60,115 bases of DNA from a virus: positions 1 through 60,115 of the IMG/VR virus record IMGVR_UViG_3300048592_000600; one strand, written 5' to 3'. Position numbers and translations under genes: made by a program. Position 1 is the stretch's first letter. Every line of letters begins with the position of its first letter. Below, in pieces: positions 21,901-59,335 of the stretch. A model generated the notes under the pieces. It was given only the letters and a program-made list of their open reading frames with translations. It made no database searches and had not been told where the DNA came from.

Positions 21901-22424
21901 CGAATCTTGAAAAATCCCGACTGCGCCGCGCGTCGAAACACCCGCCGCTTTTGCAAGCCAAGATCGACGAGGACCGCGAATTTGTCGCCGCCGTCGAAGC
22001 CCGCAAGGGCGAATTGCCGCAGCGCGACCTATTGGAACTGCGCGAACTGAAAGCGCAGATCGACGCCGCACGCGCGGAAAAGCAGACCGCGAAAGAGACG
22101 CTGATTGCCACGCGGGACACCGAGCAAGTTGCAAAGGCCACGCTACAGGCCCAGCTTGACGCGGCCACAACGAAAGCCGAGAAAGACCCGATCCGCGTGC
22201 AGATCGACGAGTGCAACGCGAAGCTCGAAGCCGCACGGCTCGACCTCGAAGAGGCGGACGCAACGCTCGACCAACTGCGCCAAGCCCGTGACGAGATTCT
22301 GTTCCAGGAGCGGCTGTCGAAGGACGAGCTTCTTGAAACCGACGCACCCGAAGTCAAACGCCGCAAGGATGCCCAAGAGGCTGATTGCGAGCATAAACGG
22401 AAGTGGTTGGCGAAGCATCGCTAG
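21897..22424 (+). CDS. Long coiled-coil protein
   Basis: The 175-residue protein is almost wholly coiled coil, rich in Glu, Lys, Ala and Arg with heptad spacing. It couples to the appendage gene by ATGA. Its stop codon overlaps tail-to-tail with the large minus-strand gene (CTAG at 22421-22424). It may be a chaperone or stalk partner of the upstream protein; inference from coupling only. Confidence 0.68.
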   Translation: MTNLEKSRLRRASKHPPLLQAKIDEDREFVAAVEARKGELPQRDLLELRELKAQIDAARAEKQTAKETLIATRDTEQVAKATLQAQLDAATTKAEKDPIRVQIDECNAKLEAARLDLEEADATLDQLRQARDEILFQERLSKDELLETDAPEVKRRKDAQEADCEHKRKWLAKHR

Positions 22425-25400: not shown

Positions 25401-26068
25401 CTCAGCCGGCCAACGCCAGCACGCAACGGCTCATCGACAAAGCCGCCTTGGCCTACGGGCAAGTTAAGTCCTTCATCGACGGCCTTGAGCAGATCATCGC
25501 CAAACCGCTCGCCGGTGACTTTGCTGGTGACACTCTGGATCCACCCGGGTTTAGATTGCTGGGCCGCCGTGCGAATCTTGGCCAGATCATCCGTGCTGCC
25601 CATGGCAATGTCGCGCAAGGTCTTGGACGATCCGAGTTCGGCCGCGCCCTGCACGAGCTTCGAGCCAGCGCGTACGGTTTCTGGCAGCGTGCCGGCTGCC
25701 TTGGCAATCTTGCCGCCCTTGCCCAGCGCCGAGGCTCCCAGCGTGAGGTAGGTCAGCGGATCAAACAGGATTTCGGTGCCGATGCCCGCAATGTCATCGC
25801 CCCAGGAATCGGGGTTGTCATCGACGCCGGCGAGTTCCTTGCCCGATACCCGCTGCGATGGATCGAAGATTCCGCCGAAAGCTCTGCCGAAATTGCCCGA
25901 GGCGATGCCGCGGATGAACGACCCCGGCGTGTCGAGGATGTTCCCAAGCGTGCCGAGCGCACCCAGGCCAACGTCGCCAAGGTACGAGAGAATCCCCTGA
26001 TCTTCTTCATCCTCGGGGAGTTGGTAGTCCTGAAAGATTCGCGGCGCGTTGAGGTAGGGATTGACCAT
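22421..26068 (-). CDS. Very large internal-virion/ejection-type protein
   Basis: The 1215-residue protein is the last gene of the minus-strand virion block. It is mostly helical, with a Gly/Leu-rich amphipathic N-terminus (DVGLGALGTLGNILDTPG). A central conserved-looking region TTFFKTFALMRPAFHVRNLAGGQIQN at about 770-795 recurs in large internal proteins of podovirus-like phages. Its size, helical content and place after the tail genes suit a protein ejected with DNA or forming a trans-envelope conduit. No lytic transglycosylase motif is seen. The Lys/Arg-rich C-terminus fits DNA contact. Confidence 0.78.
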   Translation of the reverse strand: MVNPYLNAPRIFQDYQLPEDEEDQGILSYLGDVGLGALGTLGNILDTPGSFIRGIASGNFGRAFGGIFDPSQRVSGKELAGVDDNPDSWGDDIAGIGTEILFDPLTYLTLGASALGKGGKIAKAAGTLPETVRAGSKLVQGAAELGSSKTLRDIAMGSTDDLAKIRTAAQQSKPGWIQSVTSKVTGERFGDDLLKAVDEGLNLPVGQGGFVDEPLRAGVGRLSWGERGINLGGVEAAKSLDNFADTFRYGNWLGWVPESWGQTKPQDYGNANILKTELDGAPDISQLGSPAVVPPATVTPPPTDAVYNPTSWRWDVNPVRDYLAPAFQKSSRGFRDAVGQITSQNATAKELEYQAATRGPLGDLIREWEAMPTEVQTSIPLQDLLSDFVEKGGTNAGPQLPLIAPGAGGNILEIPMDFAQRYADLMGPYSELIEKDAGTALRTLKGDELGYMARQAQNLGESADEYTNRMNRYGAIGSGNASQNAREEILRGALTTDLSRMTLDPNLVSKDLTQIYPPDPAAYQKYLQDFKGAGTADSAQTFALKQARQQAADFLLDNYDYQGFDRQQYDALVQLAQNPATADAVKDSLAKMEQARSNAGRLVDWLQTDVGDKYLQRFQETGEPLGFFTNNPMEMLGQRLSRAGKSAANAKAKIEALPQHLIKGQPGTNSDLMSLADAAEALGMATGNKPTEGFLKNIGELVGDVGDAKNWSVPRDVVENLARLTETIKTPQEISAFWNAIDKSTTFFKTFALMRPAFHVRNLAGGQIQNAQNGLFSVFGLKGSRELMNGDTIAGLAKRMGFQGTDEEATKFVADLAFQHDVIPRYAGQAADLIGVQNNQVLGAIPGSVPANASFDPRVAIKSLYARGKEAWKNRKGGTMNPLNSRGLRGEESKFFLSQANEQASHIVEGMNRLTAWIEGLSKGIDPATLAQQIKDMHVDYGNLSQFERSVMRRAMPFWSFSRGMVPYTVKQLAQNPGGPLGKTLRTITELQGEGQILPEHIAQTAAIPYGTNDQGDPRYITGLGLMPEDSMTLLGSLAGSLVGRPGLGAEFTGMLNPLIKAPLETATGRSLFQDRELRDMDPVIGRIKSNIFGGEPWQTQRLDTLAMNIAPTPLTTIKQLTDTRKGIGAKALNTLTGVKVTDVPAKTQEAMARGYLQDLLRETGGQAYEKVFISKEELAKLPPEKQQRAMQIQALLKELSERAKKRAKAAQPKA

Positions 26069-46195: not shown

Positions 46196-46879
46196 ATGGA
46201 ATTTGAACCACAATTCGCCGGCCCCAGCCAGGGCTTGCAACTCGACAACACCAATGCCATCAACGCCAAGCAGGCACGCTCCAAGAAAATGCGCGCCGAG
46301 ATTCTTGCGCTGGGCCCGGTGGTGAACAGCGGCATTTTCACAAAGTTGTCCAAGCGATTCGGCGTCACCTCGCACCGCGTCTCGGTCATTCATCGCGAAT
46401 TGTTTCCCGGCGTCGAGCGGCAAGTCTTGAACAAGCGCAGCGAACAGCCGGATTTGACCAAAGCCGACGTGGATCCTGAATTCCTTGACGAGCAAGGCGA
46501 GCGATTCCGCGCAGCATTGCCAAGACAGGTTCTTGAACGACTGGGCTGGCAGAGCCGGCGCGTGATGATGCTCATGCAAACCGGCCGATTCGACCTCGCG
46601 CGGCGGCAACTCGACGAGTGCGAGCGGCAACTGCAGAACGTCGAGAGCGAGCAAGATCTTGAGGATACGCTGATTGCGGACCTCGAGCACCGCAGTTCGA
46701 TCCGCTGGGGCAATGCCCTCGAGGAAATTGGCGTGTTTACGGTCAGGGATTTTCTCGAACGCCGCAAAGAGGAAATCATCAAACTGCCCAACTTCGGGCC
46801 CACGACGTACCAGCAAATTTCTGATGCGTGCTTCAAAGTCATGCAACGCCGCGGCGAATCATCAGTGGTGAAGTCGTAA
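46196..46879 (+). CDS. Regulator-like protein with RNA polymerase alpha-CTD-like domain
   Basis: The 227-residue protein has an HTH-like N-terminal segment (GIFTKLSKRFGVTSHRVSVI, 46-65) and a helical middle (RLGWQSRRVMMLMQTGRFDL). Its C-terminal domain (166-216) matches E. coli RpoA alpha-CTD in order and spacing. Arg170 and Asn173 match Arg265 and Asn268, EEIGVFTVRDFLERR follows, then LPNFG with Gly201 matching Gly296. Those residues contact UP-element DNA in E. coli. I infer a phage transcription factor or RNAP-associated protein. The residue equivalent to Lys298 is Thr. Confidence 0.8.
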   Translation: MEFEPQFAGPSQGLQLDNTNAINAKQARSKKMRAEILALGPVVNSGIFTKLSKRFGVTSHRVSVIHRELFPGVERQVLNKRSEQPDLTKADVDPEFLDEQGERFRAALPRQVLERLGWQSRRVMMLMQTGRFDLARRQLDECERQLQNVESEQDLEDTLIADLEHRSSIRWGNALEEIGVFTVRDFLERRKEEIIKLPNFGPTTYQQISDACFKVMQRRGESSVVKS

Positions 46880-48112: not shown

Positions 48113-49117
48113 CGGTAGTATCGCGACGCCGAACGCACCACAAGATATAGAACGCAAAGAATCTCATTGACGGCTGTGCCTCTTTACGGAAATTCTCAGG
48201 AAAAGCCCCCATTTCACCCCGTATTTCACGGCATTTCTGCTTATCCGCGGCACGCGCAAAGAATCTCAATCGTCTCTGAAAACCTGCATTTTCTCGGTGA
48301 TAATCGCATTAGGATCTGAAACTACCTGTAGGCTAAAGTAGCGTTTGTCGTCCACGGGATGCCGGCGACATTCAACAGCCCCAGTTGGCAGCGGCAACCC
48401 TTCGATCGTCGAGCAACGGGTCGGAATGAGGCTCCCACAAAGCACCGGGCCTCGACGATGACACCCGCGTGACCTCTGAAAAATCACGCATTTCCCCGGG
48501 AAAACAGCAAAAACCGCTGTATCCCGCATGGGGAGGGGTCTGTCTGTGATGAGTCCAAAACGCTTCGCCAACGGCGTGATCGTGACTTCGAACATCCTGG
48601 GGCGATTCTTTCGAACACGCTCTGCAAGGCCATGGCTGCACCGAGCATTTCCACCGAAAAACGCCGGCAAAACCGCACGATCTGCGAGATTTCCCGGGAT
48701 GCTTTTTTGGTGAAAAATTCCGCGAGGGGAAGGTAACTAATACTGCTGGCTCGCTGGGGACTCGACCCCCCGCCGACCTTTGCCGCAAGTCGTTACATAG
48801 CAACGGCTTGCGACGCTCACTATGGGAAAATCGGTCGTGTGGCTCCGAAAATCCCCCTAGTTTTTATGCATCCGAGCATCGAATTCAGCGCATCCCCCTG
48901 CTCAATTCTGCCGGGAATTGTGGCGAATTGGCCAGGGCTTGCCGTGCTCGGTCTGCTGCCGATCAATTGCCGATCTGCTTTGCGGCATCGATGCGAAGCG
49001 CGGCCGCCGATCTGCTGGAATTCAGCCCGAGCACTTGCCGCGCTCCGAATAACTTTGTTGCGGTCCGAGATTGTCTCGGTCCGATCTGCTCCCCAGTTTT
49101 TTCCTTATGGTGTTCCG
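48113..49117. other. Non-coding region with direct repeats, hairpin and CCGATCTGC repeats
   Basis: No convincing gene is seen in this 1-kb stretch; the open frames here have shadow-like composition. It holds the direct repeat CGCAAAGAATCTCA (48153-48166 and 48255-48268). It also holds two similar phrases CTCTGAAAA...GCATTT (near 48275 and 48474), an 11-bp hairpin at 48784-48812 with a possible tRNA-type arm beside it, and from 48970 the first CCGATCTGC nonamers. It may contain a control or attachment region. Confidence 0.5.
48749..48812 (-). other. Possible tRNA 3'-end fragment plus hairpin (attachment-site-like)
   Basis: On the minus strand GGGG-GTCGAGT-CCCC (plus 48756-48770) looks like a T-arm and is followed by AGCGAGC then CA, as in a tRNA acceptor strand. 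No matching 5' half is present, so it is not a functional tRNA. Next to it CGCAAGTCGTT (48784-48794) pairs with AACGGCTTGCG (48802-48812). Tyrosine recombinases often use tRNA 3' ends as attachment cores, so this could be an attP. The T-loop starts with G instead of T, which weakens the case. Confidence 0.3.
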
Positions 49118-49357
49118 ATGCTAAATCCCTTGTTTGATTCTGGTGACGTTGAATTCCCTGCCCGCGCTCGGTCCGGCGCTGCTGCGGTCCGTGTTAACGG
49201 CAGTAATGCCGTGTTCCTTGCCGGTGAATATGGTCTGCCGATCTGCTGCCGTGGTGAGCACGTGTCGCAAGCCGAGCTATCTATCGACGATCTGCCGGAT
49301 TGCTACACTTACGCGCCATCGTGGGTAATCCGTGATTCTGGCATTTTCACCAGCTAG
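49118..49357 (+). CDS. Small unknown protein within the repeat region
   Basis: The 79-residue frame starts at ATG 49118. It reads as a compact protein (FDSGDVEFPARARSGAAAVRV, then LSIDDLPDCYTYAPSWVI). Upstream lies a T-rich segment like those of the later leaders, but no good ribosome-binding site. The longer frame from 48839 is rejected because its first part has shadow-like composition. The repeat CCGATCTGC lies inside it. Confidence 0.55.
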   Translation: MLNPLFDSGDVEFPARARSGAAAVRVNGSNAVFLAGEYGLPICCRGEHVSQAELSIDDLPDCYTYAPSWVIRDSGIFTS

Positions 49358-49382
49358 CCGTGTTCGGTCTGGTGTTCCCGGG

Positions 49383-49457
49383 TTAAGTGGAATTTAGTTT
49401 GTTTTGCGGTCCAAAGTTTTTCCCGTTTTTTCATCCCGTTTTTTGGAGTGCTCCCCT
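49383..49457 (+). promoter_or_regulatory. Accessory leader copy A (variant)
   Basis: It begins TTAAGTGG (49383) and continues through a T-rich middle to GGAG (49445) and ATG 49458. It is the most divergent copy, with TTTTTTGGAG in place of CTCTCACA-GGAG. It does not abut a stop codon. Confidence 0.55.
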
Positions 49458-49901
49458 ATGTCGAACAAGAATCATGCTCCCCTTGCTTCTGCTGCTGCTG
49501 CTGCTGCTAACGTCCAAACTGGCATCGATGCCGATAAAGCACGGCGAATCATGGATGCCATGGGAATCCGTTGTTTCGCAAGTTTGGCCGCTGCTGCTGC
49601 GAAGCTCGAACCCGCCGAATTGAAAACCATCGGTGAATTGTTGGCCGATGGCAAGCAAACAGCCAAGTCACAAGGCAAGCCGAAAACGCGCCCCGACTAC
49701 GCCAGCAAAAAACAATTGCTGGCATCGATGCAACCGATAACCGTGAAGATCGCCGGTGTTGAATCGCAGCTGCGGCCGCGCAGTTTCACAACCGGCAGTA
49801 TCGGCTACAACGATAACCGCAAGATCGAAATCGATGGCGTTACGTACCAAGTCACGGCCAACATCACAGCCGTGGGCAGCAAGGAATTGCCTGCCGAATA
49901 A
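49458..49901 (+). CDS. Unknown protein with Ala-rich helices
   Basis: The 147-residue protein starts at ATG 49458 behind GGAG. Its N-terminal half is Ala-rich and helical (LASAAAAAANVQTGI, RCFASLAAAAAKLEPAE). The middle is basic and the C-terminal half is beta-rich (QPITVKIAGVESQLRPRSF, RKIEIDGVTYQVTANITAVG). No family recognised. A strong terminator follows 27 bases after its stop. Confidence 0.72.
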   Translation: MSNKNHAPLASAAAAAANVQTGIDADKARRIMDAMGIRCFASLAAAAAKLEPAELKTIGELLADGKQTAKSQGKPKTRPDYASKKQLLASMQPITVKIAGVESQLRPRSFTTGSIGYNDNRKIEIDGVTYQVTANITAVGSKELPAE

Positions 49902-49927
49902 GGGCAGACACAATCCGAGACGCGCTA

Positions 49928-49960
49928 ACTCGGTCCGAGCAATTCGGACCGAGTTTTTTT
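49928..49960 (+). terminator. Strong rho-independent terminator
   Basis: ACTCGGTCCGA (49928-49938) pairs perfectly with TCGGACCGAGT (49944-49954) round a 5-base loop, followed by T-run 49954-49960. The stem uses the same CTCGGTCCG word that recurs through the surrounding region. Confidence 0.92.
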
Positions 49961-50687
49961 GTGCGCCGATCTGCCGGCGCTTTGCGGTCCGCGCTGCCGT
50001 GCTCGGTCCGCGCTCTTCTCATTCCGCGCTGCCGATCTGCCGGCGCTGGCAATCCCGAGCACCAGCAAGCGCCGGCGCTGCGTCTCGGTCCGATCTGCTG
50101 CCGATCTGCGCCGGCGCTGCCGTGCTCATTCTGCCCGCGCTGCTGCGTCTCTGCGCGTCTCGGTCCGAGCACCGAGACAACGGCGCCATCGTTCGCGCTG
50201 CGTCTCTGCTGCGTCTCTGCCGTGCTCATGGCCGATCTGCTGCCGTGCTCGGTCTGCTGCTGGCGATCTGCTGCCGTGGCGCTGCCGTGCTCGGACCGAG
50301 CACCAGCAAGTTAAGCGCGGTCTGCCGTTGTTTGCCGTGGCGCTGCGCCATCGGTCGCGCTTATTCGGTCGCGCTGCTGCCGATGTTTTCCCGTGGATTC
50401 TCTGCCGTGCTCGGTCCGTTGTCTCAATTGCCAAACTGTCCAACAAGAAATTTGCTCGGTCCGATCTGCTGCCGTGGCCGATGGCCGGCGCCCCGCGCCC
50501 CGCCGATCTGCCGGGCATAGGTAATAGGTAATAGGCTAGCCGGCTGCCGCCAGCGCCCCATTGCAAGGCCGCGTCTCTTGACGTGCCGCCGATGGGTGCG
50601 TACGCGCTGACACCATGTTCCCGGCGTCGGCAAATTGGCCCTCGCGATGCTCACTTAATCCGCGCTCTGCTGTTCGCGGCTGCCGGG
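49961..50687. other. Non-coding GC-rich repeat-word region
   Basis: This stretch has no credible gene. Its open frames are rich in Arg, Cys, Ala and Ser with no folded pattern. It is built from a small vocabulary (CCGATCTGC, GCTCGGTCCG, GCTGCCGTG, CGTCTC). A leader-like fragment TTAAGCGCGG...GTTGTTTG at 50311-50332 shows that a gene unit may once have stood here. An iterated GGTAATA lies at 50519-50533. Confidence 0.6.
50311..50332 (+). promoter_or_regulatory. Remnant of accessory leader element
   Basis: TTAAGCG (50311) followed by GCCGTTGTTTG repeats the start and middle of the leaders at 51808 and 55917. It is preceded by CAAG, as in those copies. No ORF or ribosome-binding site follows, so this looks like an orphan or decayed copy. 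Confidence 0.45.
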
Positions 50688-50761
50688 TTAAGCGGAGTTT
50701 TTTGTGATTTGCAAGCCGATTTTTTCGGCGTGGTTTCCCTCTGGTCCCAGGAGTACGGCAC
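50688..50761 (+). promoter_or_regulatory. Accessory leader copy B
   Basis: It begins TTAAGCGG (50688), passes a T-rich middle with a small GAT-T-run segment, and ends CCCAGGAG before ATG 50762. No gene ends at its TAA. Confidence 0.6.
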
Positions 50762-51046
50762 ATGGTCACGGCTGTGAAGCGTAAGGCACGCATGTTGGTT
50801 GTTCGGCTCGCCTCTGATGAGTGGGGTCACGAACTGATGTGGAAGGTTGCTCGCGACACGATGGACGCGGACACGACGCTCGACGCTGTGCATGTGATCG
50901 AGCATGGCGGCTGGCATTTGATGTTTAACCGTGACGGGCTGGTTGTCGGTACGGCCAATGACAACTGCCGGTTGTCGGAGCGTGTTCTGCAATGGGGTGC
51001 TGGTTTCTCAGGCATCGAGTATGTCGGCTCGGTGTCCCGCGATTAA
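50762..51046 (+). CDS. Unknown small protein
   Basis: The 94-residue protein (MLVVRLASDEWGHELMWKVA, TLDAVHVIEHGGWHLMFN) looks like a compact alpha/beta domain. It starts behind CAGGAG and its TAA stop lies in the next leader's TTAAGCGG. Function unknown. Confidence 0.72.
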   Translation: MVTAVKRKARMLVVRLASDEWGHELMWKVARDTMDADTTLDAVHVIEHGGWHLMFNRDGLVVGTANDNCRLSERVLQWGAGFSGIEYVGSVSRD

Positions 51047-51102
51047 GCGGGAATCGCGTTGTTTTGAAACCTGATTTTTTTCTCTCTCACAACGGTGGTC
51101 CC
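51043..51102 (+). promoter_or_regulatory. Accessory leader copy C
   Basis: TTAAGCGG (51043) contains the previous stop codon. GCGTTGTTTTGAAA and a T-run follow, then TCTCTCACAACGGTGG and ATG 51103. This is one of the clearest copies, though its ribosome-binding segment is GGTGG rather than GGAG. Confidence 0.65.
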
Positions 51103-51423
51103 ATGAGTGATTGGCAGCATAGTCGTGACTGTAATTGGTACATCGAGAACTGGTGCATCAAGGTAAACAAGCCGTGGCGAGCGTTTCTCGGCGAAGGCGC
51201 CCCCGAGACGGTGTGCGAGATGAACAGCAGTTTGTCCCCGCAGGAGACGTGCGACAACGCCCAGTTGATTATCGCTGCTCCCAAGTTCCTGCGGATCGTC
51301 AATGCGATTCTCGATGGCGCTGAGCGTATGGGTGCTGATCTGCGTTCGACGCTGGACCTGTCCGATGACGACTTCGAGACGCTGCAATCACTGGCAGCCA
51401 TGCGGACACCAGCAGCAAGTTAA
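51103..51423 (+). CDS. Unknown small protein
   Basis: The 106-residue protein has an aromatic and Cys-containing start (HSRDCNWYIENWCIKVNK) and helical remainder (AQLIIAAPKFLRIVNAILDG). The phrase APKFLRIVN resembles the APELLKACK phrase of the gene at 55042, so the two may be related. Stop codon lies in the next leader. Confidence 0.7.
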   Translation: MSDWQHSRDCNWYIENWCIKVNKPWRAFLGEGAPETVCEMNSSLSPQETCDNAQLIIAAPKFLRIVNAILDGAERMGADLRSTLDLSDDDFETLQSLAAMRTPAAS

Positions 51424-51496
51424 GTGGAATTCGCGTTCGATTGCTAAGCAAAGTTTTTCAAATCCCGTTGGTCCATCTCTTAACCGGAGAGTCGTC
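51420..51496 (+). promoter_or_regulatory. Accessory leader copy D
   Basis: TTAAGTGG (51420) holds the previous stop. The middle reads GCGTTCGATTGCTAAGC and AAAGTTTTTCAAATCC, and the end is CTCTTAACCGGAG before ATG 51497. Confidence 0.6.
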
Positions 51497-51811
51497 ATGA
51501 GCAAGCAAGCGTTGAAGCGTGTCCGCAAGCATCTCGGCCTCGAAGTCTGCCGCAAGCCGTTGCCCAAGTACACGTCGGTGGGTTGTTACCCGCTGCTGTA
51601 TGTGTTCCGCGATGGTGGCTGCATCTGCGCCGACTGTGTGAATGACAACATCGAACTGATCGACAACGCCAACCGCGAGAAGCCCGGCCGCTGGCATAAC
51701 TCGCACGGTGGCTGGGCCGTCGATGCCCACGACATCAATTGGGAAGATCCCGAGCTTCACTGTGACCACTGTGGCGAGCGCATCGAGTCGGCGTATGCGG
51801 AGCCGGATTAA
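51497..51811 (+). CDS. Small zinc-finger protein
   Basis: The 104-residue protein has Cys pairs CICADC (near 46-51) and CDHCGE (near 89-94) that could bind zinc. The start is basic (SKQALKRVRKHLGLEVCRK). Such Cys pairs recur in this accessory block. Function unknown. The stop lies in the next leader. Confidence 0.72.
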   Translation: MSKQALKRVRKHLGLEVCRKPLPKYTSVGCYPLLYVFRDGGCICADCVNDNIELIDNANREKPGRWHNSHGGWAVDAHDINWEDPELHCDHCGERIESAYAEPD

Positions 51812-51925
51812 GCGAAAAGCGCGGTTGTTTGAAAAGCAAAGTTTTGAATCGGTTTCCCCTCCGGTTCCGTGCTGCCACGGGATCGGGGCTGGTAATCGCT
51901 TCCCTCTCACAACATGGAGCACGAT
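51808..51925 (+). promoter_or_regulatory. Accessory leader copy E
   Basis: TTAAGCGA (51808) holds the previous stop. GCGGTTGTTTGAAAAGC and AAAGTTTTGAATC follow. The end is CCCTCTCACAACATGGAG before ATG 51926. This copy is longer because of a GC-rich insert (about 51850-51890). Confidence 0.65.
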
Positions 51926-52429
51926 ATGGGCTACAGCTACACACGAGACGGCAAACTGTGCTGCGACATTTGCGGCGACAGTGGTGGGGTTCGCAAACAG
52001 AAGTGCCCGCAGAACTGGTGTCAGCCATACGCTTGCTGCCAGTCGCCTGAGTGCCGAGCCAAATTGGCACAGCATCGCAAAGAAGTCTGCGCCGTCCAGT
52101 GCAAAGAGCACAGCGAACATGCAAGACAGCGCGATGCTCGCGAAGCAGCGATGCTCGAAAAGGGACACGCGATTCGCTGCTCGGCTTCGACGATGACGCC
52201 GGATTACAAGGACTGCGTGAAGGTCTGGTTCTCACGCAATCCCCGTGGTGGGCATGTGAAGTGCGCCAACGTCCCAGCGCACCGGATCTGCTGCGTTGCT
52301 TACATGGCCACCGAGACGTACCGAGCCATCCCGCTGCTGGAACCGGCATCGATCATCGACTACGCAAGGCATGGCGAAGTGTCTCCGTGGCCAAAGGAGT
52401 TCGCCGTTTCCCAACAGAGTGTGGCATAA
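51926..52429 (+). CDS. Cys-rich unknown protein
   Basis: The 167-residue protein has many Cys residues in its N-terminal half (LCCDICGDSGG, WCQPYACC, PECRAKL, VCAVQCKEH), suggesting two or more zinc sites. The C-terminal half is alpha/beta (KCANVPAHRICCVAYMATET). Function unknown; nucleic-acid binding is plausible. Confidence 0.72.
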   Translation: MGYSYTRDGKLCCDICGDSGGVRKQKCPQNWCQPYACCQSPECRAKLAQHRKEVCAVQCKEHSEHARQRDAREAAMLEKGHAIRCSASTMTPDYKDCVKVWFSRNPRGGHVKCANVPAHRICCVAYMATETYRAIPLLEPASIIDYARHGEVSPWPKEFAVSQQSVA

Positions 52430-52430
52430 G

Positions 52431-52537
52431 TTAAGCGGAATTTCAGTTGATTTTGAAAGCGAAAATTTCCAAATCGCCAGCGCCTCACATCGCTGGCCCC
52501 TTGGTGGTTTTCCTCATCCCTCTCAAGGAGTTGTTAC
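52431..52537 (+). promoter_or_regulatory. Accessory leader copy F
   Basis: TTAAGCGG (52431) lies one base after the previous TAA stop. Then come CAGTTGATTTTGAAAGC and AAAATTTCCAAATC. The end is CCTCTCAAGGAG before ATG 52538. Confidence 0.62.
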
Positions 52538-53542
52538 ATGGGACACGGTTTCACGAGTACCGATAGCGCGGTGTTTGCTGGCCAGCGTGCTTGGCACGGC
52601 CTGGGCAAAGTGGTGGTCGAAGCCCCGACGCCAATGGAAGCCCTCAAGATGGCGGGGCTTGATTGGGAAGTCGAACAGTGGCCGCTTTCGGCCGTCAACG
52701 AAGGCAAGGCCCGTCTGCCAGTGACGAGCCATGTCTGCAATATTCGCAGCGACAACATGACGCAACTGGGCGTGGTCGGCAACGGCTATCGTCCGATCCA
52801 GAACCGGGAACTGGCCGAGTTCGCCGAGGCTCTGGGTAGCGGGGGTGATAACGTGCTGGTCGAATCGGCGGCGTCGATCAACGAAGGCCGGCGTGTGTGG
52901 TTCCTGCTCCGCGGCAATTCGTTCATGGTCAAGGGCTTCGACGATGCGGTTCACCCGTATCTACTCCTGGCCAACGGGCACGACGGCGGGCTGGCGTTCC
53001 ACGTTCGACCAACGTCGATTCGGGTTGTCTGCAAGAACACGCTCTCGATGAGCATGGGCGAGAAGTTGGAAATGGCCGTGCGGTTCCGTCACGAAGGCGA
53101 TATGAAAGCCAAGCTCGACGAAGCCAAACGGGTGCTGGGCATGTTCGATCGCACGACCGAAGTGTTCCGCGAAAAGGTTCAATACCTGAGCGACAAGGAC
53201 GTGAGCCGCGAAACGCTGAATGAGTTCTTCATGCAAGCGTACTCCGAGGCTTACGAGCAGATCCCGGTCAATCCGACTACCGCCAAACAGCGGGAAGCCC
53301 GCGAGCAAGCGTTCTATACGATGTATCAGTGGAATCGCAAGTTCCAGATCGACAGCGAGAAGTTTGGCTCGTCGATGTGGACCGCACTCAATGCCGCGAC
53401 GGATTGGATGCAGCATGATGACAAGGTGCGCGGCAAAGACGCGGCGACCCGCGAGCAGAACCGTTTGAAGTCGCAAATCTTTGGCGCGATCGAAGAACGG
53501 ACCAACGCTGCGGCACGGGTGGCGATGGCCTTGGCTGGCTAG
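52538..53542 (+). CDS. DUF932 family protein
   Basis: The 334-residue protein matches the DUF932 / phage-plasmid-like protein family. It has FAGQRAWHGLGKVV near the start, VVGNGYRPIQNRELAEFAEAL in the middle, VHPYLLLANGHDGG and the later FRHEGDMKAKLDEAKRVLG. This family is common on phages and conjugative elements; its biochemical role is not established. It directly follows a leader copy and is followed by a small hairpin. Confidence 0.9.
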   Translation: MGHGFTSTDSAVFAGQRAWHGLGKVVVEAPTPMEALKMAGLDWEVEQWPLSAVNEGKARLPVTSHVCNIRSDNMTQLGVVGNGYRPIQNRELAEFAEALGSGGDNVLVESAASINEGRRVWFLLRGNSFMVKGFDDAVHPYLLLANGHDGGLAFHVRPTSIRVVCKNTLSMSMGEKLEMAVRFRHEGDMKAKLDEAKRVLGMFDRTTEVFREKVQYLSDKDVSRETLNEFFMQAYSEAYEQIPVNPTTAKQREAREQAFYTMYQWNRKFQIDSEKFGSSMWTALNAATDWMQHDDKVRGKDAATREQNRLKSQIFGAIEERTNAAARVAMALAG

Positions 53543-53555
53543 TGGCTCCATACAA

Positions 53556-53580
53556 CCTGCCGTCAGTGTGAGACGGCAGG
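53556..53580 (+). terminator. Hairpin after DUF932 gene
   Basis: CCTGCCGTC (53556-53564) pairs with GACGGCAGG (53572-53580) round a 7-base loop. No T-run follows, so it may be a stabilising hairpin or part of the next leader rather than a terminator. Confidence 0.5.
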
Positions 53581-53609
53581 CTTATGGATTCTCTACCAAG
53601 GAGGTTTTG

Positions 53610-54098
53610 ATGGCTAAGACGCATCGGCGTGTGTGCGCTAAATGCTTGAAAAGAAAGTCGCTCGACGAGTTCAAGCCGCGGCCCAATGGGACCGTGAGCT
53701 ACTGCTACAAGTGCGAGATTGGTTACTACCGCGAATACAACGCCAAGCGTTACGCCTCGCCCGAGGCTCGTGCGGCAGAGTTGAAGCGGACGAAGGAACG
53801 CTACCATGCGGTCAGGAAACCATTACGCCACATGCGGAAATTGGAGCTTATCGCCTTGATGGGCGGCAAGTGCCAGCGATGCGGATATGCGAAGTCAGTG
53901 GCCGCGCTCGACTTCCATCACCGCAAGCCCGTGGACAAAAAAAGAACAATCAGCCACCTACTCCCCATAAACCAACCGTGGGCGTGGGAGGCATTGCTGA
54001 AAGAAGTCAAGAAGTGCGATTTGATTTGCTCGAACTGTCATCGTGAACTGACCTACCCAGGTTGGGAGATATTTCACCTGCCGAAGATCGACTTTTGA
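53610..54098 (+). CDS. HNH endonuclease with N-terminal zinc ribbon
   Basis: The 162-residue protein has an N-terminal zinc ribbon (Cys9, Cys12, Cys32, Cys35) and an HNH core with Cys88, Cys91, DFHHRKP (101-107), Cys140 and Cys143-His144. It starts behind a perfect AAGGAGG. A terminator follows. It has no TTAAGCG leader, so it may have been inserted into the array separately. Confidence 0.88.
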   Translation: MAKTHRRVCAKCLKRKSLDEFKPRPNGTVSYCYKCEIGYYREYNAKRYASPEARAAELKRTKERYHAVRKPLRHMRKLELIALMGGKCQRCGYAKSVAALDFHHRKPVDKKRTISHLLPINQPWAWEALLKEVKKCDLICSNCHRELTYPGWEIFHLPKIDF

Positions 54099-54111
54099 TC
54101 CTGTGAGAGGG

Positions 54112-54160
54112 TCCGCCCGAATAGCGCTATCGTGCTTCGCAACACGACGGGCGGAATTTT
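54112..54160 (+). terminator. Terminator after the HNH gene
   Basis: TCCGCCCG (54112-54119) pairs with CGGGCGGA (54148-54155), followed by ATTTT. An inner hairpin TCGTG...CACGA (54130-54134 with about 54143-54147) lies within the loop, so the structure is nested like the one at 47536. Confidence 0.65.
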
Positions 54161-54186
54161 GTTGCCACTTTTACCCAGGAGCCATC

Positions 54187-54546
54187 ATGCCAAAGTACGA
54201 AGTCAGAGCGATTGAATCGCGGGAGTACATCGTCACATACCATGTCGAAGCGATCGACGAAGCCGAGGCCCGCTGCATGATCGAGGAAGGGACTGGGCAC
54301 GGCGTGCAAGTCGATTGGAAGCCGCTCGACGACAGCGAGCAGATCGAGTTCATCGACAGTTGCGAGCAAATCGACAGCACCGAGAACGGCGAGCCATGCG
54401 GCGTCATCAATCACTACCGCTGCCCCGAGTGCCAAACTGAGTGGACCGACGAATGGGACTGCGCTTGCGATGACAAGTGCCCTGAGTGCGGCTGCCGGAA
54501 CATCAGCCCCTACGACAGCGTGAACAGTGTGGAGTCCACAGGTTAA
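54187..54546 (+). CDS. Acidic zinc-ribbon protein
   Basis: The 119-residue acidic protein has a zinc ribbon near its end (YRCPECQTEW and KCPECGCRN) and a beta-rich start (KYEVRAIESREYIVTYHVEA). CAGGAG precedes ATG 54187. Its stop lies in the next leader. Confidence 0.75.
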   Translation: MPKYEVRAIESREYIVTYHVEAIDEAEARCMIEEGTGHGVQVDWKPLDDSEQIEFIDSCEQIDSTENGEPCGVINHYRCPECQTEWTDEWDCACDDKCPECGCRNISPYDSVNSVESTG

Positions 54547-54597
54547 GCGAGAAACAGTTTCTTTTTCAAATCCCAATTCTCATTCACGGAGTTATTC
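54543..54597 (+). promoter_or_regulatory. Accessory leader copy G
   Basis: TTAAGCGA (54543) contains the previous stop, followed by AACAGTTTCTTTTTCAAATCC and TCATTCACGGAG before ATG 54598. This is the shortest copy. Confidence 0.62.
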
Positions 54598-54981
54598 ATG
54601 TTTGCCAAGCAAGAGACGTTCGACAGGGTGGTATCGCACTTGCGACAGCAAGGCGAGCCAGCATTCACCGTTAAAGCCTCGGGCGTGAGCTGCCGCTACC
54701 GCTTGCCCCGCGGCGATAAGGTTTTGGCCTGCGCCGTTGGCTGCCTGATCCCCGATGACCAATACCTAGAGGACATCGAAGGTGCTGGCGTCAAATACGT
54801 TATGGCCAACTTTAGCTTGTCCTTGCCTGCGATCTATGAGCACGACATGAATCTGCTCGAAGATTTGCAGTCAGCGCATGACTGGTGGGCAGGCAGTGCC
54901 GTCCTGCGGAATGTTGAAGAACAACTCGAAAGCGTGGCTAGGAAGCACGGCCTGACCTACACGCCGCCAACCCCAAGTTAA
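54598..54981 (+). CDS. Unknown protein
   Basis: The 127-residue protein has an alpha/beta N-terminal half (AKQETFDRVVSHLRQQGEPA, KASGVSCRYRLPRGDKVLAC) and a helical C-terminal half (NLLEDLQSAHDWWAGSAV). The layout is like proteins of a common phage accessory family, but I cannot name it. Stop codon lies in the next leader. Confidence 0.72.
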   Translation: MFAKQETFDRVVSHLRQQGEPAFTVKASGVSCRYRLPRGDKVLACAVGCLIPDDQYLEDIEGAGVKYVMANFSLSLPAIYEHDMNLLEDLQSAHDWWAGSAVLRNVEEQLESVARKHGLTYTPPTPS

Positions 54982-55041
54982 GCGAGAAATCCCCTGATAT
55001 GAAACGCAAGATTTTTGTTTTCTCTCACATGGAGTTGTTTG
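54978..55041 (+). promoter_or_regulatory. Accessory leader copy H
   Basis: TTAAGCGA (54978) holds the previous stop. The middle reads CCCTGATATGAAACGC and AAGATTTTTG. The end is TTCTCTCACATGGAG before ATG 55042. The segment CACAUGGAG is close to the known CsrA consensus ACARGGAU. Confidence 0.65.
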
Positions 55042-55380
55042 ATGAACAAGCGCAAATGGTCCATGTCGGCTCGGCTGCCGACAGTAGATGACATTGAAAT
55101 CTACGATGACAACAGCGACAACCGCGACGTGATTGCATCGGTCCATAAGACCGGCGATGAGTCGTATGACCTTGAAGTTGTCTATCCCGTTGCGAAGTTG
55201 ATGGCATCGGCTCCCGAACTGCTCAAAGCCTGCAAATCGCTGGCCCATGTGCTCCGCTGGCATTTCTTGCCAATGGTCGAGAGCATGATCGGCAAGCCAG
55301 CAGCGCATGCCAAAGATGCCGAGATTGAGCAAGCCCTGGTGTTGCTGGAAACGCTGGGCGTGAGTCGTGAATCTGTTTAG
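55042..55380 (+). CDS. Small unknown protein
   Basis: The 112-residue protein has an acidic start (TVDDIEIYDDNSDNRDVIAS) and a helical end with MASAPELLKACKSLAHVLRW, a phrase typical of small phage proteins beside recombination genes. Function unknown. Confidence 0.72.
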   Translation: MNKRKWSMSARLPTVDDIEIYDDNSDNRDVIASVHKTGDESYDLEVVYPVAKLMASAPELLKACKSLAHVLRWHFLPMVESMIGKPAAHAKDAEIEQALVLLETLGVSRESV

Positions 55381-55454
55381 CAGAGGGGCCGAGCGAAAGC
55401 TCGGTTAATGCGCTGCCCACTTCGGGCAACGGTCCCAAGCCCGTGAGGAGAACC
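55381..55454 (+). promoter_or_regulatory. Structured leader with GAAA tetraloop hairpin
   Basis: CCGAGC-GAAA-GCTCGG (55389-55404) is a 6-bp stem closed by a stable GAAA tetraloop. A second small hairpin GCCC-ACTTC-GGGC (about 55415-55427) follows. Then CGTGAGGAG leads to ATG 55455. It replaces the TTAAGCG-type leader at this gene. Confidence 0.6.
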
Positions 55455-55835
55455 ATGAAACTGACATCCCGAGAATTGGCAACGGTCCTGGCTGCGCTGC
55501 GTTACTGGCAAAACGATCTTGATGATGACCCGGAAATGTTTGAGAACCTTCCCGGCTCTGGGCACTTCGAGCAAGAAACGCCACTTAACGGAGATGAGAT
55601 TGACCGCTTGTGCGAGGAGTTGAACTGCTGCCCTTGTGCAAACACTCTGTTGAGCGACCGCACAGCAAAGGACCGCGAGTTGATCGAAGCCGCCGAGGAC
55701 ATGCTGACCGATCACTTCAACTACAACGACGTGACGGTGCATGAGGATGCAGAAATCACCTACACCGATGGCGGCGCATGGGTCGATTGTCAAATCTGGG
55801 TTGCCGATGACGACATCACCGAGGAGGACGACTAA
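55455..55835 (+). CDS. Acidic unknown protein
   Basis: The 126-residue protein is very acidic (LDDDPEMFENLPGSGHF, VADDDITEEDD). It is helical at the start, has a Cys pair CCPC, and shares one base with the next start. Acidic small phage proteins can mimic DNA, but nothing here proves this. Confidence 0.72.
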   Translation: MKLTSRELATVLAALRYWQNDLDDDPEMFENLPGSGHFEQETPLNGDEIDRLCEELNCCPCANTLLSDRTAKDRELIEAAEDMLTDHFNYNDVTVHEDAEITYTDGGAWVDCQIWVADDDITEEDD

Positions 55836-56071
55836 TGCAACGACGCCTATTCACCGGCATGGACTGCCTGCCGGGCCAGCAAGACCTGTTCGACACCGAT
55901 GGCTTCGATCCGCAAGTTAAGCGGGCCGCGCCGTTGTTTGAAGTTCCCAATTTTTCCTCTCACGAAAGCGAATCATGCAACCACAATCACTCCGCGACAT
56001 CATCGGTCAACCCATCGTCGAGCACTTGCAACGCTATGCCGCCAACCCCCACCCAAACTGCTTTCTTCTAA
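55835..56071 (+). CDS. Small protein with read-through tail
   Basis: The frame gives 78 residues. The first 27 (RLFTGMDCLPGQQDLFDTDG) read like a real short protein. The rest overlaps a leader and the AAA+ gene, with low-complexity His/Ser/Pro composition. The leader TTAAGCGG at 55917 would supply a TAA in another frame, so an indel may have removed the natural stop and extended the frame into the next gene. Confidence 0.55.
   Translation: MQRRLFTGMDCLPGQQDLFDTDGFDPQVKRAAPLFEVPNFSSHESESCNHNHSATSSVNPSSSTCNAMPPTPTQTAFF
55917..55974 (+). promoter_or_regulatory. Accessory leader copy I (inside preceding frame)
   Basis: TTAAGCGG (55917) is followed by GCCGTTGTTTGAAGTTCCC, AATTTTTCC and CTCTCACGAAAGCG before ATG 55975. 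Unlike the other copies its TAA is out of frame with the gene before it, and its ribosome-binding segment is GAAAG rather than GGAG. Confidence 0.6.
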
Positions 56072-56622
56072 GCGGGCCACCGGGCACGGGCAAGTCGGCC
56101 ACGGCTCGGGCGCTCGCTGCGGATCTTGGCTGCCCCGATGAGTTCTCGGGCTTCCTGACAATTTCTTCGGCAGACCTGACCGCCGACAATATCCGCGAAT
56201 ACTTTGGTCACAAGTTGCGGCTTCGCCCGCTGACCGGCTCGGGTTGGAAGTGCCTTTTGATTGAAGAACTCGATGGTGTTACGAGCAGTCAAGCAGAACG
56301 GCTCTTGAAAATTGCCTTGGACAAAAACAACTTGCCGGCCAAGACAACAATCATCGCCACAAGCAATAACGTGCTTGGCATTCCCCTGGCGCTCCGCAAT
56401 CGGTTCCGTCATGCCGAATTCAGCAATGGCCCCGAGTTTCGCAAGGCTTGCCTGGAACACTTGGCCCAACGCTGGCAGAAAGACGCGCCGGGCGAGCCAT
56501 TGCCGCGCACGTTCTGGCATTTCGGGCAATGCGGTGACGGCTTCTCGATGCGCTCGGCGTGCGATGAATACGCCCAGTGCCTTGAAATGCTGCAATCCTC
56601 TTTTACGCGAGGGCAGCAATGA
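55975..56622 (+). CDS. AAA+ ATPase, clamp-loader-like
   Basis: The 215-residue protein begins QSLRDIIGQPIVEHLQRY. It has Walker A GPPGTGKS (34-41), Walker B LLIEEL (94-99), sensor 1 IIATSNN (126-132) and RNRFRH (141-146). This is the order of clamp-loader or RuvB-like AAA+ domains, but the C-terminal collar is short. It may load a host clamp or act as a regulator. It has a leader copy upstream and an HNH gene coupled downstream (ATGA). Confidence 0.88.
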   Translation: MQPQSLRDIIGQPIVEHLQRYAANPHPNCFLLSGPPGTGKSATARALAADLGCPDEFSGFLTISSADLTADNIREYFGHKLRLRPLTGSGWKCLLIEELDGVTSSQAERLLKIALDKNNLPAKTTIIATSNNVLGIPLALRNRFRHAEFSNGPEFRKACLEHLAQRWQKDAPGEPLPRTFWHFGQCGDGFSMRSACDEYAQCLEMLQSSFTRGQQ

Positions 56623-57140
56623 AATACAAGCGACACGGAGAAAGCCGGACTAAGCTGCATCGCGTTTGGGTCCACATGAAATGGCGATGCGCAAACCCAA
56701 ATTGCCCCGGTTACATCAATTATGGTGGGCGTGGAATTGTGGTCTGCAAAGAGTGGGAGGACGACTATTCGGCGTTTAGGGATTGGGCTATCGCGAATGG
56801 CTACTCCGAGGGACTGCAAATCGACCGCAAGAACAACAACAAGGGCTACTCGCCAGAGAATTGCCGTTTTGTAACCCGCTCACAAAACAACAAGAACCGG
56901 CGCGCTAGAAAAAATGGATCGTCACGATTCAAGGGTGTAAGTTACATGCGAACCCGCAAAAAGTGGCTGGCCTGCATTCGTCATGACGGAAGAACAAAGA
57001 ACCTTGGCCATTACGCAACAGCCCTTGCAGCGGCGTTAGCCTACGATGATTTCGCTTACGATCATTACACTGAATACGCCGGTTTGAATTTCCCTGAGCG
57101 CAAGAAGAAGAATTCCATGCACACCCAAGAAAGGAAATAG
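56619..57140 (+). CDS. HNH homing endonuclease with AP2 domain
   Basis: The 173-residue protein has an HNH-type core (YINYGGRGIVVCKEW at 32-46; DRKNNNKGYSPENCRFVT at 69-86). A C-terminal AP2 DNA-binding domain follows (SRFKGVSYMRTRKKWLACIR, ALAYDDFAYDHYTEYAGLN). AP2-HNH proteins are selfish endonucleases in phages. It couples by ATGA to the AAA+ gene. Confidence 0.92.
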   Translation: MKYKRHGESRTKLHRVWVHMKWRCANPNCPGYINYGGRGIVVCKEWEDDYSAFRDWAIANGYSEGLQIDRKNNNKGYSPENCRFVTRSQNNKNRRARKNGSSRFKGVSYMRTRKKWLACIRHDGRTKNLGHYATALAAALAYDDFAYDHYTEYAGLNFPERKKKNSMHTQERK

Positions 57141-57142
57141 TC

Positions 57143-57481
57143 ATGGCTGGGCCTGCTGATGGCAAATACTACATACTCGATGGCCTAAAGCCCGTTGAGT
57201 GTGAGTTTGTAACTTGGATGGAGTGGTCCAACGAAACGGGCGGCTCTGGCTTCGAGGTTGCCAGCACGCGCGTTCGTGATCCCAATGGCAAAGAGTACGG
57301 CATCATCACGGCGTTCCGCGGCATCGGCAATTCGCTGTATGCCACCGTGATCTTTCCCAATCATGAGTGCGCCAAAGACATGGGCACTTACAACACGCTG
57401 ATCGATGCCAAGCACGGGCATCAAGAGCATGTCATTCGTCTTGTGCGCTCCGGTGTTTTTCAACTCGTCGATCAGGAATAG
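57143..57481 (+). CDS. Unknown protein, modification-type beta domain
   Basis: The 112-residue protein (YYILDGLKPVECEFVTWMEW, NSLYATVIFPNHECAKDMGT) appears to be a compact beta-rich domain. It starts behind GAAAGG, 2 bases after the endonuclease, and lies just before the recombinase gene. Function unknown. Confidence 0.7.
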   Translation: MAGPADGKYYILDGLKPVECEFVTWMEWSNETGGSGFEVASTRVRDPNGKEYGIITAFRGIGNSLYATVIFPNHECAKDMGTYNTLIDAKHGHQEHVIRLVRSGVFQLVDQE

Positions 57482-57483
57482 TC

Positions 57484-58509
57484 ATGGCTAAGAAGAAGCT
57501 CCCAAAGCCAACAACCCTCGCACTTCCCAGCGGTCCCGTCTGCCATCTCTACGGCCGCGTTTCCGCCGAAGATCAATTGCTGGGCATGTCGCTCGAAAAG
57601 CAAGTGTACGAAGGCTGGCGGTTCTACGATTACAAACTCGAGCCGGAAGGCATCGCGCGCGGCGAAGCGTTCCAAGAGCGTGCCGTCAGCGCGTACCGGG
57701 TGGACTTTCTCAAGCGGCCCGAGGGCTCACGCATCAACTTGGCTCTGCGCCCCGGCGATCACGTTGTCATCCTGCGCTTCGACCGTGCGTTCCGTAACGT
57801 GCTCGACTTCCTCAATGTGTGGAAAGCCTGGGAGATACGCGACATCGTTCTGCATGTGCTCGATCAGCCGATGTTTGACATGAGCACGGCGCAGGGGGTG
57901 GCCAACGCGCAGATGATGGCCGTGTTCGCCGAGCACGAGTCTCGCATGAAGTCGCAACGGCTGCGCGAGATGGCGCATTTCAATCGGATGCAAGGGTTCC
58001 CGGCGATCAAGACCCGCCGCGGCCGCGCTTGGGATTTCCCGGGCATTAAAATGCGTTACACCGCCAAGGGCAAATCGTATCCCGAGTTCGAGCCAAAGTC
58101 GTTTGCCACCTATCGCTACATGCTGCAGATCATGGCCACTGGCAAGTACTCCTGGGATGAAGTTCGCGAGAAGTGCGAGAAGTACATGTGTGATCTGCTC
58201 GGCGTGACCTACATGCAATCGGCGTTTCACGTTCGCCGCTGGATCACGGAGTCCTCGATGCACCACTACTACATGCGCCGCAAAGAGCTCATCCCCATGT
58301 ACGAGCGGATGGGCCTGGACTTTCCCGAGGGGCTGCTCGAAATGCCCGAGCGGTACAACTACTTTGACCGCAAGCGAGCCAAGTGCCTGCATGACATGGA
58401 GCGCAAGCTGCCGAGTTATCTGCGCAAGGGAAAGCCGCTCACGCTGCCGGGCCATTATGCTGCTCAAGGCGAAACAGAACCTCGCAGGCCGGCTTCTGAG
58501 AGCCAGTGA
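57484..58509 (+). CDS. Serine recombinase
   Basis: The 341-residue protein has the resolvase/invertase N-terminal domain: YGRVSAEDQ with nucleophile Ser27, and LRFDRAFRNVLDFL (98-111) with the conserved Arg-x-Asp-Arg. AVFAEHESRMKSQRLREM follows. The C-terminal part (about 165-341) is basic and helical, shorter than in large serine integrases and without a zinc ribbon or coiled coil that I can see. It could integrate, invert or resolve DNA. It ends tail-to-tail with the tyrosine recombinase, overlapping by 71 bases. Confidence 0.9.
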   Translation: MAKKKLPKPTTLALPSGPVCHLYGRVSAEDQLLGMSLEKQVYEGWRFYDYKLEPEGIARGEAFQERAVSAYRVDFLKRPEGSRINLALRPGDHVVILRFDRAFRNVLDFLNVWKAWEIRDIVLHVLDQPMFDMSTAQGVANAQMMAVFAEHESRMKSQRLREMAHFNRMQGFPAIKTRRGRAWDFPGIKMRYTAKGKSYPEFEPKSFATYRYMLQIMATGKYSWDEVREKCEKYMCDLLGVTYMQSAFHVRRWITESSMHHYYMRRKELIPMYERMGLDFPEGLLEMPERYNYFDRKRAKCLHDMERKLPSYLRKGKPLTLPGHYAAQGETEPRRPASESQ

Positions 58510-59335
58510 CGCGAGGATCCAGGTAGTGCTTGCGCGTCACCTTTCGATCGCTGTGTCCAAGCAACTCCGTTGCATCCCCGCCACCAGCTTCATAGAACGA
58601 TGCCACGGTGCGGCGGATGCGATGGAACTTGGACCGCGGGCCAGCATCTACGCCAGCGGATTCAAGCAGCTTGCCGTACTTTAGCCAGAGATATGTTTCG
58701 CTATACGGCCACGGAAAAACAATGCTCCTGGCCGTGACCTTCTTTATCTCGCGCAGCAATCCAACTGTTTCGGCCGATAGCCGAAACGCTTTATCTGACC
58801 GTTTGCCCTTGCGCAGCTTGGCCGGCACCTTGAGCCAGCTACGTTTCAGGTCAACGTGCTGCCACTCAATGCCGCGCACGGCGCTGATCCGCTCGCCTGT
58901 GTCCCAGATCACCAGCAGCAAGGCTTTCCACCAAAGGTTGCACGGCACTCCCTCGAAGCGGCCGTAGATTCGATCACACGCCGCGAAGATCGCGCGTATC
59001 TCCTCCTCCATCCAGGCCATCGGAATGACCTCGGGTTCCGTTTGCGCCGGCACATCAGGCCAGCGATCGACATAACCCTTACGAGCCGCATAATTCCACA
59101 TGGCCAGTAGATTTGACCGCTCTTTGTTGATTGTGTACGGGCTCAATTCTCGGTCGCGCAAGTACGATAGGAAGCGATTCACGGTCAGGTCGCTCAGGTC
59201 ATCTAGCGTTGCGGACCTGCCTAGAAATCGCTCGAACGCACGAATCGTCGAGCAATAAAGCTCTTTTGTCCTGGGAGAGCTCGAGCGCAGCTTCATCACT
59301 GCGTACAGATCGCGGTAGAAATCTTTTAGTTGCAT
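58439..59335 (-). CDS. Tyrosine recombinase / integrase
   Basis: The 298-residue protein has a SAM-like core-binding domain (SPRTKELYCSTIRAFERFL, SPYTINKERSNLLAMWNYA) and a complete catalytic set: Arg149 (DTGERISAV), Lys near 176-178, His238 and Arg241 (KFHRIRRT), His261 (LLGHSDRKVT) and Tyr271. No N-terminal arm-binding domain is obvious. It is convergent with the serine recombinase. It may integrate the phage or resolve circular multimers. Confidence 0.92.
   Translation of the reverse strand: MQLKDFYRDLYAVMKLRSSSPRTKELYCSTIRAFERFLGRSATLDDLSDLTVNRFLSYLRDRELSPYTINKERSNLLAMWNYAARKGYVDRWPDVPAQTEPEVIPMAWMEEEIRAIFAACDRIYGRFEGVPCNLWWKALLLVIWDTGERISAVRGIEWQHVDLKRSWLKVPAKLRKGKRSDKAFRLSAETVGLLREIKKVTARSIVFPWPYSETYLWLKYGKLLESAGVDAGPRSKFHRIRRTVASFYEAGGGDATELLGHSDRKVTRKHYLDPRVTGSQKPACEVLFRLEQHNGPAA

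Follow-up and report, generated by a model that had tools for sequence, protein, structure and literature searches.

A recurring leader before nine unrelated accessory genes of a tailed phage, by its layout a start-associated repeat and probably a gene-by-gene promoter

The window analysed in this study is a whole stretch of viral DNA of 60,115 bp (IMG/VR record IMGVR_UViG_3300048592_000600), in which an intergenic element, hereafter the leader, recurs before nine accessory genes. By its layout, the leader appears to be a phage start-associated intergenic repeat, a kind of element that is already known, while its own sequence differs and the function that we propose is deduced from sequence. 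In cluster K mycobacteriophages, start-associated sequences (SAS) and extended start-associated sequences (ESAS) are repeated, asymmetric, mostly found in one orientation and located upstream of the start codons of unrelated small genes (PMC3203893). The SAS is a 13-bp sequence, GGGATAGGAGCCC, placed at the start codon, and about half of the copies come with a second, longer element upstream, the ESAS, which is a 17-bp inverted repeat (PMC3203893). Like the SAS, the leader is repeated in one orientation directly before unrelated genes, but it differs from both SAS and ESAS by its 40-nt asymmetric block lying 15 to 78 nt from the start codon. With up to three mismatches, the SAS sequence has 11 matches in the window versus 12.2 expected, none of them at a leader.

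The class I and class II intergenic repeats of halovirus HF2 are 29 to 58 bp long and combine conserved blocks with variable positions; they are archaeal TATA-box promoters, found genome-wide and conserved in related viruses, and all nine of the nine tested were active as promoters in their native orientation (PMC8707807). The leader resembles these repeats by its conserved blocks, fixed spacing, intergenic location and orientation with the genes, but it belongs to a bacterial virus, is confined to one module, and no relative carrying it was found. By analogy, the HF2 precedent would count for a promoter. Finally, the L5-type stoperators of cluster A mycobacteriophages are 13-bp asymmetric sites, GGTGGMTGTCAAG, distributed genome-wide and bound by the repressor (PMC9283540); the leader is like them in asymmetry and placement, while its motif differs.

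In the window, the nine leader copies are all on the + strand, each 55 to 118 nt long before the start codon, and are gathered in one 6.6-kb stretch of accessory genes. The leader runs from block A (40 nt, TTAAGYGRRA...TG.TTTG[A/C]AA..C.AA.TTTTTC) through a variable spacer to block B, a pyrimidine tract with a Shine-Dalgarno (SD) sequence (CTCTCACA-N-GGAG). The nine TTAAG[C/T]G sites reported in a first-pass annotation of this DNA were all recovered and open the copies listed here, with block-A profile scores in bits:

49383 to 49457, + strand: leader copy 1, block A at 49383-49422, 75 nt to the ATG at 49458, 44.6 bits
50688 to 50761, + strand: leader copy 2, block A at 50688-50727, 38.1 bits, first leader 3′ of the terminator-like hairpin at 49927-49955
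51043 to 51102, + strand: leader copy 3, 43.5 bits, TTAAG holding the stop of gene 50762-51046, CTCTCTCACAACGGTGG 5′ of the ATG at 51103
51420 to 51496, + strand: leader copy 4, 44.5 bits, TTAAG holding the stop of gene 51103-51423
51808 to 51925, + strand: leader copy 5, 46.8 bits, TTAAG holding the stop of gene 51497-51811
52431 to 52537, + strand: leader copy 6, 46.3 bits, before the DUF932 gene
54543 to 54597, + strand: leader copy 7, 39.9 bits, the shortest (55 nt), TTAAG holding the stop of gene 54187-54546
54978 to 55041, + strand: leader copy 8, 40.0 bits, TTAAG holding the stop of gene 54598-54981, with CTCTCACATGGAG
55917 to 55974, + strand: leader copy 9, 38.2 bits, before a clamp-loader-like gene

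As the first-pass annotation had described, the TAA stop codon of the preceding gene is shared with TTAAG in five copies (51043, 51420, 51808, 54543 and 54978). At 52431 the upstream stop lies just 5′ of TTAAG (TAAGTTAAG), and at 55917 the upstream frame reads through. Copies 5 and 6 carry a hairpin-forming insert between block A and, respectively, the CTCTCACAACATGGAG and CTCTCAAGGAG blocks. Our home-made gene caller placed 82 genes, most of them tightly packed: leader genes stand a median of 100 nt from the gene upstream, versus 3 nt for the other same-strand genes. Copy 1 has no CTCTCA block and is preceded by repeat-rich noncoding DNA. The noncoding region from 48900 to 50500 is filled with direct and inverted repeats of the GATCTGCTGCCG and GTGCTCGGTCCGAGC type. 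A further remnant copy had been announced without a position; its sole candidate, at 50311 (TTAAGCG...GTTGTTTG), falls below our 9-bit listing threshold and is indistinguishable from chance.

TTAAGYG alone is a weak signal, with 16 occurrences in the whole window versus 8.6 expected. The copies are nonetheless conserved beyond this heptamer and a ribosome-binding site, the level at which the first-pass annotation had considered that the element might dissolve, and column information, profile scores and CTCTCA are all far above chance. Indeed, when the copies are anchored on TTAAGYG, positions 8 to 50 hold 23.9 bits of column information versus 9.6 ± 1.1 in shuffles (0/2000 as high), and the summed gapped pairwise scores reach 348 versus 210 ± 12 (0/150). 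The motif model that had been suggested was built from the nine copies and sets them apart in the genome: they score 38 to 47 bits, while the next independent site on either strand scores 19.1 and the shuffle maxima range from 9.6 to 21.7. Every copy still ranks near the top when it is left out of the model, even without the TTAAGYG columns. The start codon side is also distinctive, with CTCTCA at most 40 nt from the start codon in five of nine leader genes and in none of the 73 others (p = 5e-6), and CTCT or TCTC near it in 8/9 versus 10/73. Outside TTAAGYG the copies have only about 50% in common, and adjacent copies are no more similar than distant ones; the conserved columns thus seem to reflect constraint rather than recent duplication.

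Our best explanation, of moderate confidence, is that block A serves each gene as its own promoter and that block B is a ribosome-binding site. Block A would work at the DNA level, most likely as a promoter at which RNA polymerase begins a separate transcript for each downstream gene, and block B, with its pyrimidine tract and GGAG, would be the ribosome-binding region of each such transcript. The 6.6-kb module would yield nested messages, each with its own start and all governed by one common factor, with block A read by an alternative sigma factor or a phage-encoded factor, or representing a divergent host promoter type. Transcription start at the leader, and the place of the start site, are predictions.

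Several observations point in this direction, and the first-pass suggestion that the leader may be a promoter thus draws inferential support from fixed spacing, orientation, a terminator and analogy. First, block A keeps its internal spacing to within 1 nt along its 40 nt (one extra middle base in the copies at 51043 and 52431), while anything from 15 to 78 nt separates it from the start codon; a protein-DNA site followed by a 5′ untranslated region (UTR) therefore fits better than an RNA fold. Second, the nine copies share the same orientation, lie directly before genes and occur nowhere else in the 60 kb. Third, block A is T-rich, with a GC content of 0.37 versus 0.54 to 0.60 in genes, and no leader folds better than its shuffles: folded singly, none is more stable (z from -1.6 to +2.0). 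The alignment of the nine leaders gives no consensus base pair and the Rfam scan no match for the leader, which leaves a structured RNA element unsupported. Finally, an intrinsic-terminator-like hairpin (49927-49955, + strand, 13 pairs followed by a T run) lies directly 3′ of leader gene 1, and the interval up to the leader at 50688 contains only noncoding repeat DNA, with no open reading frame (ORF). With this arrangement, the transcript of gene 50762 probably starts between 49955 and 50762, and the leader at 50688 is the obvious candidate.

We also compared the module with 48 DUF932 loci from other viruses. A sigma-70 promoter (at least 10 of 12 consensus bases) is found at most 150 nt upstream of the DUF932 gene in 21 of these loci versus 2.5 expected from shuffles. 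In three of them, such promoters are repeated before neighbouring genes (8/19 genes in L188, 6/16 in L189 and 6/20 in L172, with fewer than one expected), as near-identical units made of GGGGTTGACTTT..TATAATG, a spacer, CACGAAAGGA and ATG, with their own conserved SD block. Like the leader, these units place a promoter-like block, a spacer and a conserved SD block before successive small genes including DUF932, but they are near-perfect sigma-70 promoters (TTGACA/TATAAT), whereas the leader has no such hexamers. These repeated promoters suggest that gene-by-gene expression around DUF932 recurs among phages, with the leader seeming to fill the same place with another sequence. In L172, L188 and L189, the promoter cassettes are often preceded by ACGACTTACGG repeats and GC-rich stretches, and at least two drive tRNA-like genes.

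Four points weigh against a promoter at block A. First, in the 150 nt upstream of the nine leader genes, the best sigma-70 match (TTGACA, 16-18 nt, TATAAT) reaches 5 to 7 of 12 consensus bases. Likewise, no sigma-70 site was found on the + strand from 49.3 to 56 kb. None of the 82 phage genes has a strong sigma-70 site at most 120 nt upstream, which suggests that the host promoters themselves may differ from the consensus. Second, the scan of phage proteins, many of which have no assigned function, revealed neither a sigma factor nor a single-subunit RNA polymerase. Third, a promoter leaves the conservation of block B unexplained. Fourth, the DUF932 comparison is an analogy drawn across distant viruses, with no homology implied for the leader. 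A 1215-aa protein (22421-26068) was considered as an RNA polymerase and rejected: it has no PDB or Pfam match and is common to relatives without leaders.

A 227-aa protein encoded at 46196-46879 (+ strand) carries an RNA polymerase alpha C-terminal domain (PF03118, above the gathering cut-off), and no homologue was found in INPHARED phages or in the twelve relatives described below. In a bolder version of the promoter, which we consider improbable, block A would represent a new class of promoters in bacterial viruses; a transcription apparatus encoded or modified by the phage, for which this protein is an example, would read it and switch on the module gene by gene, and the leader, by supplying the stop of the preceding ORF, would be a landing place for new genes.

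The genome encodes a terminase, a portal, a major head protein, a DnaB-like helicase, a RuvC-like resolvase, methyltransferases, a serine recombinase and a tyrosine integrase. The virus is therefore a tailed phage, and its tyrosine integrase makes it probably temperate. The ends of the record overlap by about 75 bases, the bases from position 27 onward recurring at its end, which points to a probably circular or terminally redundant contig. Scans of genome contigs found no relative that could point to the host. The leader was not found in other records by IMG/VR pattern scans, in INPHARED or in 2.86 Mb of fetched related DNA. In IMG/VR, the exact matches to two leader patterns were all single (5 and 30), and we attribute them to chance because their best block-A profile score is 24 (versus 38-47) and no locus has more than one copy. 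Blastn of the module and of the consensus leader against INPHARED gave nothing meaningful, and locus searches with single queries (DUF932, serine recombinase, clamp loader) returned one distant relative or none. Terminase-level relatives (40-48% identity) allowed a comparison with twelve whole or near-whole genomes, which have structural genes and serine recombinase in common with our phage. They contain no leader and, apart from one clamp-loader-like gene in one genome, no leader gene, nor do they show any recurring gene-start k-mer substitute beyond shuffles. At this distance the module thus behaves as accessory, variable DNA, which does not in itself show that leaders are exchange points.

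The main rival to the promoter is control at the RNA level, which we regard as unlikely but worth keeping because it would account for block B, a block specific to leader genes. The leader would act as a 5′-UTR or intercistronic element controlling translation or stability, for example through a CsrA-type protein bound to GGA, or as an unstructured U-rich ribosome-loading site. Indeed, the phage encodes a CsrA homologue (254-520, + strand, phrog_9500, E 5e-20), GGA is enriched in leaders (13 versus 6.7 ± 2.3 in shuffles, 5/500), [CA]-N-GGA is found near the start of five of nine leader genes versus 3/73 others, and five upstream stops lie within the leader, as in a polycistronic message. However, CsrA targets are recognised by A(N)GGA at the SD sequence together with at least three binding sites (PMC4066749), whereas A(N)GGA occurs in four of nine leaders, with at most two GGA each. 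Four copies have no GGA in their 5′ part, and neither TTAAG nor TTTTT, both invariant, is a CsrA site. Moreover, the leaders have no RNA structure, a spacing fixed over 40 nt is unexpected for single-stranded protein sites, and relatives G009 and G027 have CsrA but no leaders. The true start of the CsrA homologue is probably at an internal MLVLSRK.

Block A could alternatively be an operator of the stoperator type, an asymmetric one-way site where a phage repressor would halt transcription of the accessory genes in the lysogen. The probable temperate lifestyle is consistent with this, as is the description of L5-type sites as asymmetric, located in short intergenic spaces and oriented with transcription (PMC9283540), like the leader. 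We nevertheless judge this function quite unlikely: the L5 sites are 13 bp long and genome-wide, whereas the leader block has 40 nt and is confined to one module; the window shows no excess of the L5 consensus (33 matches with at most three mismatches versus 26.6 expected), and an operator does not require a dedicated SD block.

It is very unlikely that the leader is a recombination site, at which ORF cassettes would be gained or lost at TTAAG through a site-specific recombinase, as in integrons; exchange of ORFs at a shared leader had been proposed in the first-pass annotation. In integron cassette arrays, an attC-type site bordered by RYYYAAC and GTTRRRY lies 3′ of every ORF, and an integron integrase is present. 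In the window, GTTAAGY precedes six or seven leaders, the base 5′ of TTAAG not always being G, and the conserved element lies 3′ of GTTAAGY, before the next ORF. That unrelated ORFs are flanked by leaders, that five of them end exactly in the leader TAA, and that a serine recombinase and an integrase adjoin the array would suit such exchange. On the other hand, the serine recombinase is kept in 12/12 whole relatives examined, none with leaders; homology-driven exchange would keep the copies alike, which they are not, even between neighbours; the conserved SD block and one-way placement before genes fit expression; and no swapped pair was found, the searches having returned no second genome with leaders. 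As for chance, T-rich intergenic DNA with an ordinary ribosome-binding site could explain the T-richness and the mild enrichment of TTAAGYG, but it is refuted by the column information that no shuffle in 2000 reaches, the profile (38 versus 19 bits) and CTCTCA (5/9 versus 0/73).

The genes of the module and their neighbours are as follows:

49458 to 49901, + strand: leader gene 1, 147 aa, no family match
50762 to 51046, + strand: leader gene 2, 94 aa, no family match
51103 to 51423, + strand: leader gene 3, 106 aa, weak phrog_1273
51497 to 51811, + strand: leader gene 4, 104 aa, phrog_18452 (annotated DNA ligase)
51926 to 52429, + strand: leader gene 5, 167 aa, phrog_11293, no assigned function
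52538 to 53542, + strand: leader gene 6, DUF932 protein, 334 aa, PF06067, E 5e-46
53610 to 54098, + strand: leaderless HNH endonuclease gene, phrog_2255, E 3e-29, breaking the leader series
54187 to 54546, + strand: leaderless gene, 119 aa, folded intergenic region upstream
54598 to 54981, + strand: leader gene 7, 127 aa, phrog_17693, no assigned function
55042 to 55380, + strand: leader gene 8, 112 aa, phrog_1273
55379 to 55444, + strand: twister self-cleaving ribozyme of type P5, lying between genes 55042 and 55455, 53.9 bits (gathering 37.6)
55455 to 55835, + strand: leaderless gene, 126 aa, twister ribozyme upstream
55975 to 56622, + strand: leader gene 9, clamp-loader-like ATPase, phrog_168, E 4e-18
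57484 to 58509: serine recombinase, adjoining the array
58439 to 59335: integrase, adjoining the array

The leader genes are small and mostly without assigned function. The name DNA ligase is doubtful for leader gene 4 because its product has only about 100 aa. Phages of Caulobacter, Sinorhizobium, Klebsiella and others carry homologues of 54598 and 51497. The ORFs preceded by leaders had been described as unrelated, and they show no mutual protein similarity at E<0.1; BLASTP did not confirm a sequence relation between the two phrog_1273 genes (51103 and 55042). The description of each unit as a leader plus one ORF stands in that nine genes are preceded by a leader; it does not extend to the HNH gene at 53610, which may have been inserted into the series, to 54187 and 55455, which are leaderless, or to the last leader, which heads four tightly packed genes (55975-58509).

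The regions upstream of the three leaderless genes (53610, 54187 and 55455) fold better than their shuffles (z -2.84, -2.07 and -1.79). The first two (53543-53609 and 54099-54186, + strand) have no Rfam match. The twister ribozyme sits exactly at the third leader-free gap and would cleave the message between 55042 and 55455.

Taken singly, the accessory genes of phages usually have no known function. A start element common to several of them marks those that are expressed together and gives a handle on their timing. If block A is indeed a promoter outside the sigma-70 consensus, it would point to an unrecognised transcription factor in the virus or its host. Finally, leaders that hold the stop codon of the previous gene would show how a phage gains small genes without disturbing their neighbours.

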